A stretch of 33,347 bases of DNA, taken from positions 1 through 33,347 of IMG/VR virus record IMGVR_UViG_3300020056_001226; one strand, 5' to 3'. The position numbers and the translations under genes are program-made. The DNA is from a virus. Shown one piece after another: positions 1,519-30,934 of the stretch; position 1 is the first letter of the stretch; every line of letters begins with the position of its first letter. Under the pieces are notes generated by a model. That model saw only the letters and a program-made list of their open reading frames with translations. It did not search any database and was not told the origin of the DNA.

Positions 1519-2491
1519 ATACTTTTCCTCTAGGCCAATCAATCATTCCTCTAGCATCACGCTTTTGTAATTCAAAAAAATCCTTGGTTTCAAATATTGG
1601 TAACTCTGGAACCTCAGCATTCTGAATTAATGTTAAACATCTCTTTCGATTATGCATTCTCTCCGTATCTGTTATCTCTACCAAATCGGACAGTTTAATA
1701 TTTAGCAATTTTTTAAACTGTTCATAAAATCCTTCAAGTCTTTCTTCATTATCTTCTATACTGTCAAAAGAATAGTCAATAACGTTATCGTGCATCTTGA
1801 ACCCCAACCACTTCAAATTGCGATAATAGTTCTGTGCCGAAAATCCGAATGCAATCTTTTCATGTAGCAGAGGTTTCCATGTTTTTTCGGTAAACCTCAA
1901 CGTATTTACCTCTGGTTCAACATAAACATCTATCAATACTCTATCATAAAATTCAGCAGGATTGAAAGCAATTTTCGTTACCATGTCTGGTTGTTTCAAA
2001 CTATCGGCAATATTGAATTCTATATCAGCGAACACCCCGTTCCGTAAAAAAGAACAATACTGATTGATCAGTCCATCTTTCTCCACCTTGTCCCATAATT
2101 TCTGTCTAAAGGGTCTAGATTTGCCGTTAAGAAAACAAAACGGAATAGTGATCTCTTGATTTACATGTGTCTTGCCATGAGATATTGTTAGATACAAAAA
2201 ATAGTAAGGGTTTTTGCCGTGATACATATTTCTAGGCAGAGTATGATTCATATCACGAAAAGAATTGTCTTCGATGCAAAAAGATATATCAGAATTCTCT
2301 TCCACGAAAGAAATGTCAACAAATCGCACTATCTCTTCCCACAAATTGAACAAAGTATATTTTTTGTCCTTGCCGTGTTCGGATACTATCTCTTTGAGAG
2401 CATCATTATCTACAGTTCGGTGGCCATCAGCATCCCTTGCTAATAGGCATGATATGTAAACATTTTTATCATCAGAAGAAACTACGTTCAC
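1499..2491 (-). CDS. GT10/fucosyltransferase-like protein, copy 1, 330 aa
   Basis: The C-terminal half carries FTEKTWKPLL (about 200-209), then a GF segment and NVIDYSFDSIED. This resembles the GT10 (alpha-1,3-fucosyltransferase) signature in which an acidic strand precedes a TEK motif that binds the nucleotide sugar. The first 170 residues are poorly conserved. It is a clear paralogue of the protein at 22667-23599, sharing TEKTWKP, the YDxxLID segment before it and DYS-F/Y-D after it. A glycan-transfer role is inferred; donor and acceptor are unknown. The start is GTG at 2491, overlapping the TGA of the preceding gene as GTGA, with a weak RBS, so translation is probably coupled. Confidence 0.65.
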   Translation of the reverse strand: MNVVSSDDKNVYISCLLARDADGHRTVDNDALKEIVSEHGKDKKYTLFNLWEEIVRFVDISFVEENSDISFCIEDNSFRDMNHTLPRNMYHGKNPYYFLYLTISHGKTHVNQEITIPFCFLNGKSRPFRQKLWDKVEKDGLINQYCSFLRNGVFADIEFNIADSLKQPDMVTKIAFNPAEFYDRVLIDVYVEPEVNTLRFTEKTWKPLLHEKIAFGFSAQNYYRNLKWLGFKMHDNVIDYSFDSIEDNEERLEGFYEQFKKLLNIKLSDLVEITDTERMHNRKRCLTLIQNAEVPELPIFETKDFFELQKRDARGMIDWPRGKVYEWQGK

Positions 2492-2676
2492 CTAATTTGT
2501 TCTCTCTTTTTGTCACCAAACTTACGGCGATACACGGTTTCGCCCTTATCTGGACTTTCGTATATCCACGGTCTTTTTGCGTACCACTCTTCATAAGTGA
2601 TCAGAGGTTTATTAGCACCTTCCATCACGGCAAGATCAGCATGGTACATGGCACGCAAAACTTTGTCAGTATCCAT
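2488..2676 (-). CDS. Conserved small phage protein (YEEWYxxRPW type), 62 aa
   Basis: A short soluble protein with ITYEEWYAKRPWIYESPDKG followed by VYRRKFG, a pattern I associate with small conserved marine-phage proteins. Function unknown. Starts further upstream (2742 and 2691) are open, but ATG 2676 overlaps the receptor gene's TGA by only 11 bases and has GGG about 7 bases upstream, while the longer versions lie mostly inside the receptor C-terminus. Its stop overlaps the GTG of the glycosyltransferase-like gene. Confidence 0.6.
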   Translation of the reverse strand: MDTDKVLRAMYHADLAVMEGANKPLITYEEWYAKRPWIYESPDKGETVYRRKFGDKKREQIR

Positions 2677-4165
2677 GCTGATACCCAACATGAAACTCGA
2701 CACCCCCAACAGGATACCCGTACTGGATTTCATAGACTTCATCAGTGAGATTGCTCACCGTAGCAAAAAATCCACTGTTCTCATAGGTAAAGTCAATTGT
2801 GGTTGCCCACTGATTGCTATTGATCTGAGTCGTGAAGTCTTTCCACTCAGCGGTCACAGAACCTTTCCACTCCGATACAAATGGCTGATCACTGTCAGTG
2901 TACCCAGCGAATACCGAAAAGTTCACATCACCAAAAGTGTAATTGTCTTGGAATCGCACACCACTGGTAGAGTAGTCGCCCGTATTCTGAAACTGATTGT
3001 TTTCAAAATTGTAGGTAATACCCTCATCAAAATTATATGCGAATGCCGTTACTGGGCCCAGTGAGATATCAATACCGGCAGATTCTTCTGGATTTAGATT
3101 GTTGTTCGACATAACGTAAGCGTCTCCGTTCTCTTCATATAGTGTTGGTTCCCGATAAGATGATCCTATGGCGACATTAATACCAGTGAGCAGGGGAACC
3201 GAAAACCCAACTCTGGCAACTACATTGTCACCGTCAGTTCTAACAGAAAAACCACCGTACTCAGCATACGCCTCGACCCGTTCTCTGGTTTGTCCTGCGA
3301 ATCTTTCTGCGTTGATTGTCGCACCGATCAACACATCATAAAACATCTGTCTAGCATCAGTGTAGAATCGTTGCGACTTACTTTCATAACCACTGCCCTC
3401 ATTGGGGAAGTCAGCATTGTTCCAACTGTAGCCAACTGTTATATTCTCATCATTGTACGATACTGTGCCACGGTTGCCTTCCTGTTTACACTCATCAGAA
3501 AATAGTGTCATGACAAAATTCTCATCAAAGGTAGGCTGGTAGCACCTATCGTAGTCATAGGAATAGTCAGTATAAACTAAATTGAAATTGCCGTACTCTC
3601 CACGCACCGTATAATTTTTGTACATGTCGTCTTCGTCATTGTCAGACCTGACCGAATCATTGTTAGCACCAAATGCCGTGAAAGAAAAACCCAAGTCACT
3701 TGATATGTGTGTCATGGCACTCTTTGATCCGGCACGAATCATAAAACGATTATCAAACGTATCGTTGATAAAAACAGTTCCAGCGAGTGAACCAGAACCA
3801 TAGATTGTAGAGTTAGAACCCTGCACCAGCGTGATTCTCTCGCCGCCTGTGGGTATATCATGAGCAAAGTCATACCAACCAGTACCAGAATCGTTGACAG
3901 GGATTCCGTTGCGATATATCTGCGAGTGAATAGTCTGTTGCCCTCGTTCACGATATCCAGCGAAACCACCATACCCACCTTGAGTGAATGATTGACTAGG
4001 ATCAAGAATCTCAGCGACAGTGAAATCTAAGTTTGGTTTGGGTTCAAATGTCTGGCGAGGTGCCGCCTCCACGACAATCTCATAAAGTTCTTCGGCATAC
4101 GCTGCACCAGCAAACCATGCCATGAACAGAAATACCACAAAAACATACCATCTAATTTTAATCAC
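2666..4165 (-). CDS. TonB-dependent outer-membrane receptor, BtuB-like, 499 aa
   Basis: From GTG 4165 the protein has a signal peptide (MIKIRWYVFVVFLFMAWFAG, cleavage near AYA-EE at 24), a TonB-box-like YEIVVEA (28-34) and a plug domain to about 137. The plug includes RGQQTIHSQIYRNGIPVND and STIYGSGSLAGTVFI. A long Tyr/Asn/Gly-rich beta-barrel region follows and ends in an aromatic residue. The C-terminal NLTDEVYEIQYGYPVGGVEF resembles the end of the vitamin B12 receptor BtuB (N-L-x-D-x-x-Y-E-x-x-Y-G-Y). At 499 residues it is shorter than E. coli BtuB (about 614), so barrel strands or loops are reduced. Two Cys about 23 residues apart may form a loop disulfide. The GTG overlaps the TGA of the 38-aa microprotein as GTGA; GGGAT is upstream. 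Substrate (corrinoid, siderophore or other) is inferred only. Phage genes flank it on both sides. Confidence 0.85.
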   Translation of the reverse strand: MIKIRWYVFVVFLFMAWFAGAAYAEELYEIVVEAAPRQTFEPKPNLDFTVAEILDPSQSFTQGGYGGFAGYRERGQQTIHSQIYRNGIPVNDSGTGWYDFAHDIPTGGERITLVQGSNSTIYGSGSLAGTVFINDTFDNRFMIRAGSKSAMTHISSDLGFSFTAFGANNDSVRSDNDEDDMYKNYTVRGEYGNFNLVYTDYSYDYDRCYQPTFDENFVMTLFSDECKQEGNRGTVSYNDENITVGYSWNNADFPNEGSGYESKSQRFYTDARQMFYDVLIGATINAERFAGQTRERVEAYAEYGGFSVRTDGDNVVARVGFSVPLLTGINVAIGSSYREPTLYEENGDAYVMSNNNLNPEESAGIDISLGPVTAFAYNFDEGITYNFENNQFQNTGDYSTSGVRFQDNYTFGDVNFSVFAGYTDSDQPFVSEWKGSVTAEWKDFTTQINSNQWATTIDFTYENSGFFATVSNLTDEVYEIQYGYPVGGVEFHVGYQHGY

Positions 4166-4278
4166 ATGAACATCCCATATGCTAGACACCACAATTCTAA
4201 CCCAAGTTTATAAAATACCCAAGCACCCATAACGCACAATGCGCCCATACACATTTGACCAGTGACAGTCTTATTCAT
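4162..4278 (-). CDS. Membrane microprotein, 38 aa, coupled to the TonB-dependent receptor
   Basis: The ORF encodes 38 residues beginning MNKTVTGQMCMGALCVMGAW, followed by VFYKLGLELWCLAYGMFM. One or two hydrophobic stretches suggest an inner-membrane microprotein; three Cys and six Met are unusual for its size. AGGAGA sits at ideal distance from ATG 4278, the strongest RBS in this region. The ATG overlaps the stop of the upstream SGNH gene by 8 bases, and the TGA overlaps the receptor GTG (ATGTGA). This architecture strongly suggests a translated gene co-expressed with the receptor. Function unknown; a receptor- or TonB-associated role is speculation. Confidence 0.65.
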   Translation of the reverse strand: MNKTVTGQMCMGALCVMGAWVFYKLGLELWCLAYGMFM

Positions 4279-5269
4279 TATTATCTCCTATCATGCCACG
4301 TTTAATCAGTTCCTTTTTAACCAATTTCATCCATGCATTTTGGACATCAGTAGGCGGGTGATACATCAGATTTTCTGCAAAATCACCACACTCCCAATAT
4401 CTAAATTCTTGTAGTCCACCTTGAACAACGCTGTCGTTCTCATAAAAAAACCAAGTGTCCCAATCAATCATATCCATCCAATGTTTACAGTCTGGATACA
4501 TCTTTTCAATTCTTTTGTTTTTGAATTCTGCCTTCATATTTTCTGGCAACGGCGTTGTAGTTTTTTCTGTGTTGTCCCACAGTCTTCTAGCCAACCAACC
4601 CATAGTTGCTTGTCCAGAGATTAAGTTTCTATCGCCGTTGCCATGAATTTCATCTGTTGGTCTAACGTGTACATCGTGAAATATATTCTGCCAACACATG
4701 TTCATCAAAGGTACGCCATAGGATTTGCACAAAGACTGTAGAGTAATTATGGCACGACATGTGTCAACATAACATTGTGCTTTGCTAAAATTGTTATCGA
4801 AATAAGACCTAATGCGTCTATCTAATGACGGTATACCAAAATCCCATATACCATAACCACCCCCAATGATCAACCAATTCGACATCGGGTGTTTTATTTT
4901 CTCATTATTTTCGGTGAGGAAATAATTGGTAAAAGTAGTCTGCTGTTCTTTCCTTAACCCATTGTAGATATCTCTCCAGTCTGGGTCTTCGTGAGTGAAC
5001 AAGAATTCTTTTCTAAATGGCGATGACCACATCACTACCACACCAGCAGCATTTTTTCTTCTCTCTGGTTTTGATAGTTCATAACATAAACGATCACAGA
5101 TGATCTGATTTCCAGAACCCATCTGTGCAGCATGGATAACAGAATCTCTTCCTAATTCAGATTCTAGTTGTCTGGCCCATGATAAAGTTTTTTTGTCTGT
5201 GTGTGCCGTAAAAGAACATCCACCAGTAATAATATAATTATCTTTTTCCGCCGAAGTATCTGACTGCAT
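4271..5269 (-). CDS. SGNH/GDSL-like hydrolase, copy 1 (332 aa)
   Basis: An SGNH-type nucleophile block GGCSFT lies at residues 16-21, with Ser19 the putative nucleophile. A block II-like MGSGNQ, a VVVMWSSPFRKEF strand, and a C-terminal MYHPPTD that could supply the catalytic His follow. The family contains esterases, acetyl-hydrolases and O-acyltransferase-linked domains acting on lipids or glycans; the substrate here is unknown. It is one of four SGNH-like proteins in the window. I start at ATG 5269 because this leaves a typical short N-terminus and a purine-rich GGAAAAGGG upstream; ATG 5293 is possible. It overlaps the nuclease gene upstream and the 38-aa microprotein downstream. Confidence 0.6.
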   Translation of the reverse strand: MQSDTSAEKDNYIITGGCSFTAHTDKKTLSWARQLESELGRDSVIHAAQMGSGNQIICDRLCYELSKPERRKNAAGVVVMWSSPFRKEFLFTHEDPDWRDIYNGLRKEQQTTFTNYFLTENNEKIKHPMSNWLIIGGGYGIWDFGIPSLDRRIRSYFDNNFSKAQCYVDTCRAIITLQSLCKSYGVPLMNMCWQNIFHDVHVRPTDEIHGNGDRNLISGQATMGWLARRLWDNTEKTTTPLPENMKAEFKNKRIEKMYPDCKHWMDMIDWDTWFFYENDSVVQGGLQEFRYWECGDFAENLMYHPPTDVQNAWMKLVKKELIKRGMIGDNNE

Positions 5270-5603
5270 GTCCCTTTTCCACCAAGTATTCATTCAATGA
5301 CTGATCAGCGTATTCTTTGTCTGACCAAATCTCACCAAGGATACGACCATACTTGCCCTTGGCATCATATGTTTTTGTTTTAAGAACGGCAGTCTCGCCT
5401 TCTGGGCAAAAGTTCACACAGTAATCTTTTGCAGCAAGACCCAATTTCTTTTCTTCCAAATCTCTGGTACGACTTTCTGGCGTGTTAATACCATAAAGTC
5501 TGACTCTTTGATCATTGAGCCAGACTCCAAAACCTAGATCGATATGCACATCAACGGTATCACCATCAACCCATCTGTCAATGATTACTTTGTACTCATA
5601 CAT
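5238..5603 (-). CDS. Staphylococcal nuclease homologue (thermonuclease), 121 aa
   Basis: A complete SNase-fold domain (PF00565 type). VDGDTVDVHIDLGFGVWL gives the OB-fold strands, RVRLYGINTPES carries Arg35 and Glu43, and KYGRILGEIW carries Arg87, so the Arg-Glu-Arg catalytic triad of staphylococcal nuclease is intact. The classical Asp of the DTPE motif is Asn here (NTPE), as I believe is common in phage and bacterial homologues. No signal peptide is present, so it should act in the cytoplasm, plausibly in host-DNA scavenging for the dNTP genes of this phage. GGGGA lies about 6 bases before ATG 5603. The start overlaps the 26-aa microprotein upstream and the stop overlaps the SGNH gene downstream. 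Confidence 0.9.
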   Translation of the reverse strand: MYEYKVIIDRWVDGDTVDVHIDLGFGVWLNDQRVRLYGINTPESRTRDLEEKKLGLAAKDYCVNFCPEGETAVLKTKTYDAKGKYGRILGEIWSDKEYADQSLNEYLVEKGHAVRYFGGKR

Positions 5604-10338: not shown

Positions 10339-10566
10339 TTACTTAACAAAATGAATAATATTGTCAATGATTAGTGATCGCCACTGGGACTTTTCCACAT
10401 CGAATACGGTAACGTGGGTATCTTTTTGAGTGCTAGTGCCACTAGTAGCAGGAACAACCGACTCCTGTAGAGTGGCCTTCACAACACGTTCCGTACCATC
10501 CTTCTTTTTGTAGAGAATATTAGCAGTACCGTTGACCAGCACATCAATCACCTCTTGTTTATTCAT
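10339..10566 (-). CDS. WYL_2/DUF2693-type Sm-like beta-barrel protein, 75 aa
   Basis: The pattern MNKQEVIDVLVNGTANILYK, then KDGTERVVKATL, and a C-terminal VFDVEKSQWRSLIIDNI matches the small WYL_2 (DUF2693) family found in T4-like phages. In that family a short helix precedes an SH3/Sm-like barrel that ends in a WRSF-like strand. These proteins are thought to be small binding or modifier proteins; the ligand here is unknown. ATG 10566 is favoured over 10578 because GGAG is about 7 bases upstream and the ATG overlaps the upstream TGA (ATGA). Confidence 0.75.
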   Translation of the reverse strand: MNKQEVIDVLVNGTANILYKKKDGTERVVKATLQESVVPATSGTSTQKDTHVTVFDVEKSQWRSLIIDNIIHFVK

Positions 10567-11645
10567 CGCAAACTCCATAGTTTTTTCTCCATGATTTCAT
10601 CATATAGTTTAGTAGCTATTGCCTCGTGGCACTTTTCATCTGGGTGGCCACCAGGCATTTTTCCAACAAACGATGGATGAGTTTTGTTGAGGAACATATC
10701 ACCAAAGTCTGTTTGAGACATCTCCGGCATAGACTTGACCGAATTAATCTTATTGTATATTTTATCATATAATTTAGTTTCACGCAAGAACAAATAGTAT
10801 TTTTCTTGGATTTTTTTATCCATGCCCCAAAACTCTTCTCCATCACAAAATAGATCGATGATCTGCATATACCTGTTGCCTTCTCTTATATGCCTAGAGA
10901 GTGCCCCACATGTTTCTGATTCTTCTACTACTTTCAATCCATCCAAAACCACGTTCATTAGACGCAAGTTACCTAAAGCATCCCACATGTAACAAGGAAT
11001 TCTTTTAGCACGGAAAAAATAAACGAGCGATTCAACATATCTCAAAGTATCTAAAACTTGATGTATTGGAGAATTGAATTTGTGATTGCCAATCACTTCT
11101 GTTTTCATATTCACAAAATGTCTTTGTTCTATGTTTTCTGAAAACAAACTTTGTATGCTATGTTGATTCCAGTGTGAATACTCCTCTATGACTGGATCAA
11201 GGTCATCATCGTCTGGACTGTAGACACCACCCTTTGCCCACTCATTGAAATCCCCATCGGTGTGGTGACCCCTGACCCCATCACATTCTTCACATGGGTA
11301 TGTTGGTTCCCACAAATTTAAAAATCTTTCATTGATAGGAATTTGAAATCTCTCTGGGCCAGTCAATTGAATAACTGCTATCCCATCGTATTCAATGTTT
11401 TGTGGTTTGTTGAAAAAATCAAGAGTCGTTCTCCAAGTTCTTGGATTTGATCCTGCTCCCCTTGAAATATTTACTACACCAGTGTTTAATTTTTGAGACA
11501 AAAGAGTTGACCATCTCTTCTCTCTTCTATACTTCGTGTCTACCCACTGATACGGTTCCTTTTTTTCCGTGTCATAATATCGTGTCTCTTCTCCCAACTC
11601 TGCTCCCAGACTAATGGAACATCCATTGACAAATAATTTACTCAT
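10563..11645 (-). CDS. SGNH/GDSL-like hydrolase, copy 2 (360 aa)
   Basis: The N-terminus MSKLFVNGCSISLGAELGEE places the SGNH block I (GCS, Ser10) directly after a beta strand. NISRGAGSNPRTW fits block II, AVIQLTGPERFQ the strand before block III, and the C-terminal GGHPDEKCHEAIATKL supplies a candidate catalytic His with an Asp two residues later. A CEECDGVRGHHTDG insertion near 117-130 contains Cys and His residues that could bind metal. The substrate is unknown. It overlaps the upstream membrane-protein gene by 8 bases and the WYL_2-type gene by ATGA. Confidence 0.6.
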   Translation of the reverse strand: MSKLFVNGCSISLGAELGEETRYYDTEKKEPYQWVDTKYRREKRWSTLLSQKLNTGVVNISRGAGSNPRTWRTTLDFFNKPQNIEYDGIAVIQLTGPERFQIPINERFLNLWEPTYPCEECDGVRGHHTDGDFNEWAKGGVYSPDDDDLDPVIEEYSHWNQHSIQSLFSENIEQRHFVNMKTEVIGNHKFNSPIHQVLDTLRYVESLVYFFRAKRIPCYMWDALGNLRLMNVVLDGLKVVEESETCGALSRHIREGNRYMQIIDLFCDGEEFWGMDKKIQEKYYLFLRETKLYDKIYNKINSVKSMPEMSQTDFGDMFLNKTHPSFVGKMPGGHPDEKCHEAIATKLYDEIMEKKLWSLR

Positions 11646-19741: not shown

Positions 19742-20560
19742 TTAAATTTCCCTTAACCATCTCGTTGTTAGGTCTTGCTGAAAGTGCAAGCCTGGATGCA
19801 TCAAATCTCTTGATGCCGCAAATTTTTCATTCTCGTTGTTTTTCCAAGCATTCATACCAATATGATGCCTTTCAACAGCAGATATGGTTCTCAATTCTAT
19901 GTTGTGTTGGTGACACAGTTCACTGATTGCCATTAGGTTCTTCTGTCTTGATATATATCTCTCTACTTTATCGGCAGCTAAATCTTGTTTCCAAGATTCT
20001 GGTGACCAAAATCCAATGGGTTCAGCATTTTCATTGGTGAACACTTCCCTTCCTAATTGGCTGTTCTCCAAAAGTAAAACCATTTTGGGTTTTATAATCG
20101 GGAGCCAAGAATATAGAGCTCTAAAAGTGACATCCATTGGTGCAGTTGGCAGTCCCAAATTCCACACTTTTGTTTTAGTTTCCCACTCCAACATGGAAGG
20201 CCATATTTGAGTTTCGTGTAAACCAGTGCCAAACGTAAAACACTCTCCAGTTGCTACAATACTGTTTGGAGATTCATAAAACTCTTCATCACGAAATCCG
20301 TAACTATTCAGATCATAATTAATGGTTGTTCCCAACCACCCATATTTTTCTAGTTCGTTTTTTCGTTTTTCAAAGTTTTTATTGTACTCTTCCTCACTGT
20401 CAGTAGAAACCCAGTTCAATGTAATCGGACTTTTTCGATTATATGATTGGGGGTTGTGATATTTTATTTTATCTTCTACTCGACTAATGGTATCCTGATT
20501 ATCCTCAGTAGATTTAAAAATTCTTTCAAAAGCTTTGTACCGAAAAAATTTTCTACTCAT
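19742..20560 (-). CDS. SGNH-like protein, copy 3, with Ser-to-Cys at block I (272 aa)
   Basis: The protein shares its layout with the 29978-30934 copy: an N-terminal W-x-STD segment, NYDLNSYGFRDEEF (82-95), a block I region GECFTFGTGL (105-114) and DLMHPG near the C-terminus (His255). In the paralogue block I reads GCSHTFGVGL, so the nucleophile Ser is Cys107 here (codon TGT). It may be a thiol-based enzyme, altered in specificity, or inactive. Its location between thyX and nrdA is odd for a glycan enzyme. GAGG precedes ATG 20560, which overlaps thyX by 8 bases. Confidence 0.6.
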   Translation of the reverse strand: MSRKFFRYKAFERIFKSTEDNQDTISRVEDKIKYHNPQSYNRKSPITLNWVSTDSEEEYNKNFEKRKNELEKYGWLGTTINYDLNSYGFRDEEFYESPNSIVATGECFTFGTGLHETQIWPSMLEWETKTKVWNLGLPTAPMDVTFRALYSWLPIIKPKMVLLLENSQLGREVFTNENAEPIGFWSPESWKQDLAADKVERYISRQKNLMAISELCHQHNIELRTISAVERHHIGMNAWKNNENEKFAASRDLMHPGLHFQQDLTTRWLREI

Positions 20561-28083: not shown

Positions 28084-28091
28084 TATTTATA
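28084..28091 (-). promoter_or_regulatory. T4-like late promoter (TATAAATA), overlaps stop codon
   Basis: An exact TATAAATA 36 bases upstream of ATG 28048, containing the TAA stop of the radical SAM gene. The remaining gap (28049-28083) is AT-rich leader with GGAGA. Confidence 0.75.
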
Positions 28092-29697
28092 AAGATAACT
28101 TCTTCTGTTTGTACTCTTCTATAGAATCTTTGACCATTTCTCTGGGTGGATTCATCATACTAGGCAGTTCTCTAAATGTTTTGGTCAACATATCATTCTT
28201 TGTAAATCCAACTCCCTGCCAATTTGACTGATTAAAGATAGGTACACCACGATCCCAGTATCTTTCGTGTCCAAATATTTCTTCCTGCACGCCAATGAAT
28301 GCTTCAATATAGTCAAAGTGTTCGTTTTTCCAGAGGTAACTACCCATTTGAAACTGTGGTGAGTTTACATCTGGAACCATTTTCTTAATTCTCCACTTAA
28401 AATAGTCAGCAATATTTGGGTTGTTGTAAATATGATCCAGTCTATCCCCAACTGGTTTAATTTCTATTGGTTGCAAGGTTGTATATCCATATTTATCCAT
28501 ATTGTTGGACATATCATTGGGTCTCGAAAACCCGCTATCCCTAATGATGTGTAGAGGAAACATTGATACTGCCTCACCATACCAATTTTCGTCAATCCAT
28601 TTGAATGTTTTGTCCAGTGTTTCTCTGGTTTCGTGAGGTAGTCCCCAAATAAAACTCATTTCGCCACGATAAAAATCATTGTGTTTGAGGAAATATTTCT
28701 TTGCTTCTAATATACCAGGCAGGATTTTTTCTGGGTCTCCCCCTTTACCAATTGCTTTAGCAGATGCATGATTCGTAGATTCGATGCCATACAAGTGACT
28801 GTTAAATCTCATCCTTGCCAGTTCTTCCAGATCACCTTCCCTCATGGTCATTAGATCAGCACGAACATATCCAGTGAAATTTGGTTTGAAGTCCAATGAT
28901 TGAACAACATCACCGTACTTTCTTATTTTTTCAACATAATCATTGAATGTGTCATCTGTAATAATGTATTCTGTAAGACCCCACTTGTCGTAATTTTCTT
29001 TGATGTTTGTTTCAAAGTCTTCTTTGCTACGAGTGTAGTCTTCTTTAACCCCTAGAATCGGGAAGTTGCAATAAGAACACTTGAAACGGCAACCACGAGA
29101 TGTCTCCATAGAAACAACTTCATAAGGTTTGATAAAATCTCTTTCCTCGTATTTGATGGAGAGTATTGGCCATGGCCATGCGTTGTATTCTTTTGTTCTC
29201 CAACAATCAACATGTTTCACAACTGGCATATGTGGAAACATCTGAAGATCGACACACTTGGGGTTTCCTTCTAATACTGCTTTGATACCAAGTTCTCCGT
29301 ATCCAGAGACGTAGTAATCTATGTTTGGTATCTGTACAATAGACCACACATCTTGACTACCAGCGCATGTGGTGACATGTGGATAAGTTTCTTTGATGTG
29401 TTTGAACAATTCAAGAACTACTGGGGCGCTAAGAAAAAAGATTCCGCCAATACCAACAAGTCTGGTATCTGGCCCAATCCTACTTTTACAAAGTTCTTTT
29501 AGTTCTTCAATTGTCCAAGAAAAGATAAAATCTACCACCTCAACATCAAGATCAAACTCATCTCTTATGTAGGTAGCAATTCTATATGTTCCAGAAGTTC
29601 TACTTCTGGTTTCATACACTGGTTCATCACCAAACTCTTTTACTGTATTTGCATATCCCGCCATTCCAGTAAAAAGTAACACATCAACTTTTGACAT
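28087..29697 (-). CDS. Radical SAM protein, probably B12-binding-domain type, 536 aa
   Basis: The radical SAM cluster motif is SRGCRFKCSYCNFP, with Cys203, Cys207 and Cys210, after about 195 residues resembling a cobalamin-binding Rossmann domain (LVGIGGIFFLSAPVVLELFK, then YYVSGYGELGIKAVLEG). The classic DxHxxG cobalamin-ligand motif is not visible, so B12 may bind base-on or not at all. Later segments include TEYIITDDTFND and FYRGEMSFIWGLPHETRETL, typical of the (beta-alpha)6 barrel and an elp3/MiaB-like C-terminus. The reaction is unknown. GGAT precedes ATG 29697. It lies among structural genes, as an insertion of auxiliary character. Confidence 0.8.
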   Translation of the reverse strand: MSKVDVLLFTGMAGYANTVKEFGDEPVYETRSRTSGTYRIATYIRDEFDLDVEVVDFIFSWTIEELKELCKSRIGPDTRLVGIGGIFFLSAPVVLELFKHIKETYPHVTTCAGSQDVWSIVQIPNIDYYVSGYGELGIKAVLEGNPKCVDLQMFPHMPVVKHVDCWRTKEYNAWPWPILSIKYEERDFIKPYEVVSMETSRGCRFKCSYCNFPILGVKEDYTRSKEDFETNIKENYDKWGLTEYIITDDTFNDYVEKIRKYGDVVQSLDFKPNFTGYVRADLMTMREGDLEELARMRFNSHLYGIESTNHASAKAIGKGGDPEKILPGILEAKKYFLKHNDFYRGEMSFIWGLPHETRETLDKTFKWIDENWYGEAVSMFPLHIIRDSGFSRPNDMSNNMDKYGYTTLQPIEIKPVGDRLDHIYNNPNIADYFKWRIKKMVPDVNSPQFQMGSYLWKNEHFDYIEAFIGVQEEIFGHERYWDRGVPIFNQSNWQGVGFTKNDMLTKTFRELPSMMNPPREMVKDSIEEYKQKKLSL

Positions 29698-29977: not shown

Positions 29978-30934
29978 TCAAGCAAAGTTAAGGGTATTCA
30001 TAGACGGGCCTATCAAACCAATAATATCATCCGCCCAGATTTTATGAGTTTCAGCGCCTGGGTGTATCAAATCTCTTGCCATACTTATACCATCAAAAGA
30101 ATCATTTCCTCTAGCCAGTTGCCATTCATAGTGGCCCCATGCTCTATACTCTTTACGAAATTCATGTGCAGAATCAACAATAAAAACTGGAATTTTCATT
30201 TCTTTTGCTATTGTTTGAAGCATAACAATGTTTTTTGATGTTTGGACAAGGTTGTTCATATCGTTTAAGATAGAACAATATTCCATACTGTACATTTCTT
30301 CTTTCGTTGGGTTTTTCTTTATTGTATTTGCAGAACAAGACCTTATATTAAAACCAGAAAAAAAATTCCATCGTCTAGGAGGGGGATTCAACACAACAAT
30401 TGCTTTTGGATTTTTTACATCGGTTCTTAACATAAACATAGCATGTAAAACTGCTAAATCCAATCCAGTGCCAGGAACACCAAAGTTGAAATCCGCACAA
30501 TCAAAGTATTTAGATACTATGTGTGAGAAAGTTTTTTCTTTTGGCAATCCGACACCAAAAGTGTGACTGCATCCATAAAACACAATCCCCTCTTTATCAT
30601 AACTATCATCAATTCTAAACCCATCCGAGTTTAAATTATAATTGATTGCTACTGGAACACCTTTCTCGGTTATCCACCCAAAGTGTTCCAAACACTTTAA
30701 CCTTACTTTATCTTTTTTGTTTTTTTTAAATGCGTCTAAATTATCAGTTGACATCCAGTGAACAAGATGATCTCTGTTTTCTTGATATTCTGTTTCAGCA
30801 AACTGTAAATTGACACCACCAATAGACCTTCTTAGGTTCACCAGTTCTTCTTGCGGTAGACATATACTATGTTCCCACCCGAGGCCTCGTCCCAAATAAG
30901 TTCTTACATATTCTAAAACTTTATCAACTTTCAT
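29978..30934 (-). CDS. SGNH/GDSL-like hydrolase, copy 4 (318 aa)
   Basis: An N-terminal domain (about 1-95) precedes AINYNLNSDGFRIDDSYDKE and the SGNH block I YGCSHTFGVGL with Ser123. GVPGTGLDLAV fits block II, AIVVLNPPPRRWNF the region before block III, and RDLIHPGAETH supplies the catalytic-type Asp288/His291. It is the closest relative of the Ser-to-Cys copy at 19742-20560 and has the intact triad. It is probably an esterase or acyl-hydrolase; substrate unknown. The RBS is weak (AAGG about 14 bases away). Confidence 0.65.
   Translation of the reverse strand: MKVDKVLEYVRTYLGRGLGWEHSICLPQEELVNLRRSIGGVNLQFAETEYQENRDHLVHWMSTDNLDAFKKNKKDKVRLKCLEHFGWITEKGVPVAINYNLNSDGFRIDDSYDKEGIVFYGCSHTFGVGLPKEKTFSHIVSKYFDCADFNFGVPGTGLDLAVLHAMFMLRTDVKNPKAIVVLNPPPRRWNFFSGFNIRSCSANTIKKNPTKEEMYSMEYCSILNDMNNLVQTSKNIVMLQTIAKEMKIPVFIVDSAHEFRKEYRAWGHYEWQLARGNDSFDGISMARDLIHPGAETHKIWADDIIGLIGPSMNTLNFA

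Follow-up and report, generated by a model that had tools for sequence, protein, structure and literature searches.

Why would a phage carry a gene for an outer-membrane receptor that resembles BtuB, the vitamin B12 receptor of Escherichia coli? The question is raised by a gene in the window, the whole 33,347-nucleotide stretch of viral DNA analysed here (IMG/VR record IMGVR_UViG_3300020056_001226). An earlier note, made from the sequence alone, had read this gene as a phage-encoded, BtuB-like, TonB-dependent receptor that might raise nutrient uptake during infection or block superinfection. We asked whether the gene belongs to a phage, what its product is, how the product relates to bacterial BtuB, and which ligand or other role is the most probable.

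Results

The receptor gene and its export signals

The receptor open frame occupies positions 2666–4192 on the minus strand and encodes 508 residues when read from its first GTG (4192, an alternative start). The GTG at 4165, chosen in the earlier note, is the better start because it overlaps, as GTGA, the stop of a 38-amino-acid mini-ORF (4162–4278, minus strand) and because translation from it begins with a normal signal peptide and goes straight on to a TonB box; the gene is thus 2666–4165 and its product 499 amino acids. The mini-ORF in turn overlaps the end of an upstream phage gene of 340 amino acids (4271–5293, minus strand), which had no Pfam or PHROG match above the cut-off, and on the other side the ATG (2676) of a 62-amino-acid ORF (2488–2676, minus strand) overlaps the receptor stop. 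The overlaps by which the gene had been tied to its phage neighbours are therefore real and suggest coupled translation, which is likely for the mini-ORF and the receptor. The upstream gene shares a GCS-F/T-type motif, recalling SGNH hydrolases, with three other genes of the window (10563–11645, 19742–20560 and 29978–30934), and these genes are possibly a phage paralogue family. In many related loci, a terminator hairpin and a Shine-Dalgarno sequence precede the receptor gene, and in one branch, at locus L022, a perfect sigma-70 consensus promoter lies just 5' of it, indicating that the receptor gene can form its own transcription unit.

The predicted signal peptide, MIKIRWYVFVVFLFMAWFAGAAYA (residues 1–24; 4094–4165, minus strand), was called by its sequence pattern: a K/R n-region, a hydrophobic core and an AxA motif, with the predicted cut after AYA, an architecture common to the relatives. 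A TonB box, ELYEIVVEAA (4061–4090, minus strand; family consensus EEIVVVGA), also recognized by pattern, follows directly; its EIVVEA corresponds to DTLVVTA in BtuB. Both elements had been proposed from the sequence, and none of the 31 aligned relatives (alignment A2) lacks the box; E29 and V32 are each present in 30 of the 31.

Sequence profiles place the protein closest to BtuB

The window receptor matched the Pfam Plug model PF07715 (E = 2.6e-8; 34.8 bits against a cut-off of 23.9; model positions 27–107), and the TonB plug was the only domain that Pfam detected in it. Every one of the 17 proteins in the first alignment matched the Plug model, and one of the 17 matched the barrel model PF00593. 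A phmmer search of PDB with the single window protein returned no match, and a profile was needed: a profile of 17 relatives found E. coli BtuB at 4.4e-19, with the next receptor at 1.6e-5, and covered both the BtuB plug (23–158) and the C-terminal barrel (382–592). A second profile gave 2.2e-21 for BtuB and 2.6e-5 for the next receptor. Chance is excluded as an explanation of the observation, and the protein is a member of the TonB-dependent receptor superfamily, as the earlier note had held.

The resemblance to BtuB has a limit. All 17 members matched the NCBIfam vitamin B12 receptor model TIGR01779, but far below its equivalog cut-off (27.8 vs 599.7 bits). In addition, 15 of the 17 matched PHROG 5687 (best 1.4e-10), a family that carries no functional annotation; the window's own protein fell short of the threshold for this match.

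The predicted structure is a plugged 22-strand barrel

AlphaFold predicted a plugged barrel for both the window receptor (pLDDT 76, pTM 0.78) and its relative at L020 (pLDDT 81.7, pTM 0.83). By our count, the strands following the plug numbered 22 in the L020 model, where the count is clearest, and 22 in the window model if 306–310 and 315–322 are counted as two. The barrel corresponds to 2669–3751 (minus strand), and the plug, defined by the Pfam match, by conservation and by alignment to the BtuB plug, corresponds to 3752–4060 (minus strand) and is shortened at its N terminus. In Foldseek searches, BtuB headed the list for the window model (2gsk, TM 0.71) and took most of the top ranks for the L020 model (TM up to 0.78); FepA-type receptors had close scores. 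Across both models, BtuB was the best or second-best fold match.

These computations show a secreted TonB-dependent receptor with a TonB box, a plug and a 22-strand barrel, closest to BtuB; a predicted structure lacking plug or barrel, the outcome that would have contradicted the earlier reading, did not arise. It shares with E. coli BtuB the signal peptide, TonB box, plug, strand number, conserved plug loops and acidic loops L2 and L3, and over its whole length BtuB is the best profile match and close to the best fold match. However, the two proteins are only 17–22% identical, and the mature phage receptor has approximately 475 residues against 594. The phage protein is thus shorter, as the earlier note had observed; the shortness reflects a plug without some 15–20 N-terminal residues and trimmed barrel and surface loops, not missing strands. 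A conserved cysteine pair in L3 is a further difference from BtuB.

A gene of T4-like phages

The window corresponds, at 99.9% identity, to bases 1–32957 of a 165,637-base contig (G001) whose PHROG matches include a T4-type terminase, tail sheath, portal, major capsid, clamp and DNA polymerase. The identical receptor gene occurs on three contigs, of which this 165-kb one is the longest. Other genes of the phage include a fatty acid desaturase (PF00487, 6e-13; L107 11385–12095, or 151.4–152.1 kb of G001), and a phage tmRNA with the tag ANDDVYALAA lies at L106 7528–7882 (marked by an asterisk in ARAGORN and read as permuted). L102 carries genes for a TauD-type dioxygenase and a redoxin.

When IMG/VR was searched, the single protein retrieved 29 loci and the alignment at least 167, the relatives ranging from 100% to approximately 32% identity to the window protein. 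Among the 62 loci with enough flanking sequence, 58 carry the receptor gene between phrog_1250 and a DEAD/UvsW-type helicase gene, in the replication block and just behind UvsY and a RecA/UvsX-like gene; one branch has an extra gene between phrog_1250 and the receptor, and the window's own branch (the window, L004 and L006) has the receptor placed elsewhere. In L202 and L241, close relatives among the helicase loci, the slot is empty and the gap measures 108–109 bases, and at L209 (470–2227) a receptor copy lies on the other side of phrog_1250, indicating that the slot is mobile. Filled, empty and shifted slots together point to an accessory gene that has a defined slot and that many relatives have retained. 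In one branch, a holo-ACP synthase gene (4'-phosphopantetheinyl transferase, PF01648) lies beside the receptor (L084 6297–6677 and seven other loci).

Pairwise dN/dS values of 0.09–0.28, in pairs with dS > 0.2, indicate that the receptor protein is maintained by purifying selection. The gene thus belongs to a T4-like phage lineage: the contig, the shared slot, the empty sites in relatives and the selection on the protein bear out the claim that it is phage-encoded. An assembly chimera of host and phage DNA, the outcome that would have spoken against this claim, was rejected on synteny and independent contigs.

A virus-only family outside the sampled cellular receptors

When 85,462 species of bacteria and archaea were scanned by pattern, no family member was found; such scans rely on short conserved peptides, which a divergent cellular relative could escape. 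A second scan, with BtuB added, returned only BtuBs and other receptors, 21–24% identical over the full length. Recent capture of a cellular gene was rejected, since these pattern scans found no close cellular homologue and the best BtuBs reach only 21–24%. In the tree, the 31 phage sequences grouped in a single clade with 100/100 support. Its stem measures 1.6 changes per column, and at midpoint rooting the clade lay outside every sampled cellular receptor. The phylogeny with BtuB that the earlier note had proposed therefore did not nest the phage family among bacterial BtuBs. A tree in which phage and BtuB sequences were held together was not rejected (AU p = 0.244), and an origin near BtuB is possible from these sequences. 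Of the label BtuB-like, the nearest resemblance stands; because the family scores below the TIGR01779 cut-off and forms a separate clade on a long stem, the receptor is BtuB-like and not BtuB.

TonB-dependent receptors have been annotated in phages before. The marine megaphage Mar_Mega_1 carries one of the SusC type, annotated as an auxiliary metabolic gene (PMC9723777), and a SusC of an uncultured marine phage (A0A8D9FQQ5) was the only convincing match to our receptor in a library of predicted viral structures; this protein of approximately 800 residues is 10% identical over the fold alignment and belongs to a different branch of the superfamily. The pelagiphage Polarivirus skadi has a TonB-dependent receptor gene among its tail and capsid genes, for which a reading linked to adsorption was given (PMC10504331); compared by description, it shares with the present family the annotation and the marine phage source, but skadi is another type of phage. 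A tblastn search of 50,697 named phage records with five queries found no family member and only weak BtuB matches, which came from bacterial contigs present among these records, and our search of the open-access literature found no paper describing the present receptor family. What is new is therefore a BtuB-like family found only in viruses.

The most conserved residues lie in the plug loops and in L2 and L3

Two plug loops, GGYGGF..RERG and ND.G.GWYDFAHD, are hyperconserved, with consensus identities of 0.71–0.83, and the extracellular loops L2 (3623–3664, minus strand) and L3 (3482–3559, minus strand) reach 0.70 and 0.82, against 0.42–0.6 for most barrel strands; most invariant residues fall in these four loops. 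D175, E178 and D180 in L2 are invariant in 31 of 31 sequences, as are D204, D206, C208 and C226 in L3, where the acidic position 225 is nearly so. In BtuB, cobalamin rests on the plug apices with loops L2–L5 around it, and two calcium ions are held in a cage of five aspartates (L2, 177–197; L3, 227–241) (PMC7360065). A global alignment sets the phage L2 opposite TDND (D193, D195) and L3 opposite NYD (Y229, D230) of BtuB, which makes them the putative counterparts of the BtuB calcium loops at low local confidence; the register of the six conserved acidic positions against the five-aspartate cage is uncertain. Because the plug loops and acidic L2 and L3 are the most conserved parts, a corrinoid or a similarly held ligand is favoured.

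Gene associations bearing on vitamin B12

Genes found downstream of the receptor encode MetK (22 of 42 loci with enough sequence), an adenine phosphoribosyltransferase (24 of 42) and an MTA/SAH-type nucleosidase (17 of 42), the 42 scored loci sharing descent. L012, L020, L008 and others carry the three in the order MetK, adenine phosphoribosyltransferase and nucleosidase, a near-complete set for methyl-cycle salvage. Such a cassette would accord with B12-dependent methionine synthesis; the 165-kb phage of the window itself has no MetK cassette.

This phage encodes a radical-SAM protein outside the receptor locus (28087–29697, minus strand; Pfam Radical_SAM, 3.6e-17); its best matches in NCBIfam, all below the cut-off, are for the most part to radical-SAM families that bind cobalamin. 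A second such protein of the phage (L106 2559–4064) is 38% identical to it, and its best families are again mostly cobalamin-binding. B12-binding domains scored above the cut-off in two other receptor-bearing records, but they were about equally frequent in related phages free of the receptor (2/16 vs 3/16); given this lack of enrichment, the radical-SAM proteins are a possible B12 client, not evidence. Tandem radical-SAM/SPASM-type genes also occur in this phage (L106 16906–20000 and L107 1–8080, approximately 136.9–148.1 kb of G001), near a carbamoyltransferase gene (L106 10727–12157).

A B12-dependent ribonucleotide reductase as the motive for uptake was rejected, since the phage enzyme belongs to class I and has NrdB beside it. 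A search of seven sources (the window and six loci) for a cobalamin riboswitch returned none, an upstream riboswitch being a common but not universal trait of BtuB. The 165,637-base contig encodes a CobS-like ATPase, and L006 has a CobS neighbour; the latter was weakened as evidence for cobalamin, since marine T4-like phages commonly encode such ATPases and since its partner is a phrog_459 peptidase and not CobT.

Discussion

On balance, we consider it probable that the phage makes its own TonB-driven importer for the outer membrane, with a corrinoid or a similarly bound compound as the most likely ligand. The receptor would be exported during infection and inserted into the host outer membrane; in the branch with the sigma-70 consensus promoter, early expression by the host RNA polymerase is plausible. 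A host TonB-ExbB-ExbD complex, assumed to be present, would then pull on the TonB box, the plug would rearrange, and a scarce, bulky nutrient would pass into the periplasm. This nutrient would most probably be a corrinoid, or else a compound held in a similar, calcium-ordered way, and imported cobalamin could supply the host methionine synthase or phage radical-SAM enzymes of the cobalamin-binding type. Retention of the TonB box in every aligned relative argues for energised transport, since a passive decoy would not need the box. The narrower proposal is a virus-only lineage of transporters that import vitamin B12 or another corrinoid into infected bacteria and that phages have retained for a time sufficient for a separate family to arise; it is plausible, with somewhat less than even chances.

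Built on a BtuB-like scaffold, the same TonB-driven machine could instead serve for the uptake of another ligand, for example heme, a metal, a siderophore or PQQ. We regard this reading as rather unlikely, yet as the strongest of the alternatives. Weaker family matches to TonB-hemlactrns (2.3e-9; 13 members) and ZnuD (one member), the close fold scores of FepA, PfeA and Cir, and the position of the family outside BtuB all agree with it, as does the iron requirement of the radical-SAM enzymes and of the class I ribonucleotide reductase that the phage encodes. However, BtuB is ahead of every other solved receptor by approximately 14 orders of magnitude in the profile search, and the residues kept throughout the phage family fall on the BtuB loops that bind cobalamin and calcium, as far as the low-confidence loop alignment can place them.

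TonB-dependent receptors often serve as receptors for phages and colicins. Superinfection exclusion or receptor masking, by flooding the outer membrane and sequestering TonB or displacing the receptors of competing phages or toxins, is therefore a rival still to be reckoned with, albeit an improbable one. The TonB box could titrate TonB, and the early expression suggested by the L022 promoter would suit exclusion, but a decoy needs no conservation of plug loops and extracellular L2 and L3 across 31 of 31 sequences. Moreover, surface variability would be expected of it, yet L2 and L3 are among the slowest parts of the protein, and the receptor shows no sequence closeness to any single host receptor.

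We consider it very improbable that the protein is a structural, entry or lysis factor, that is, a pore or virion component and not a transporter: the pelagiphage receptor does lie between tail tube and capsid genes (PMC10504331), and in L006 the present gene comes after an endolysin, but the signal peptide, plug and TonB box are all kept and the gene usually sits in the replication block, not in a tail or lysis block. Although every contig is metagenomic, three contigs with the identical gene, a slot common to 58 of 62 divergent loci and a pattern scan of 85,462 species without a member leave an assembly chimera or host contamination only a negligible chance.

The auxiliary genes of phages are known mostly as intracellular enzymes. 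A conserved outer-membrane receptor found only in viruses would show that phages alter what the infected cell takes up, possibly vitamin B12, which limits many marine bacteria. The family gives an identity to the unannotated PHROG 5687, and the finding bears on whether uptake or exclusion is the role of phage-encoded TonB-dependent receptors.
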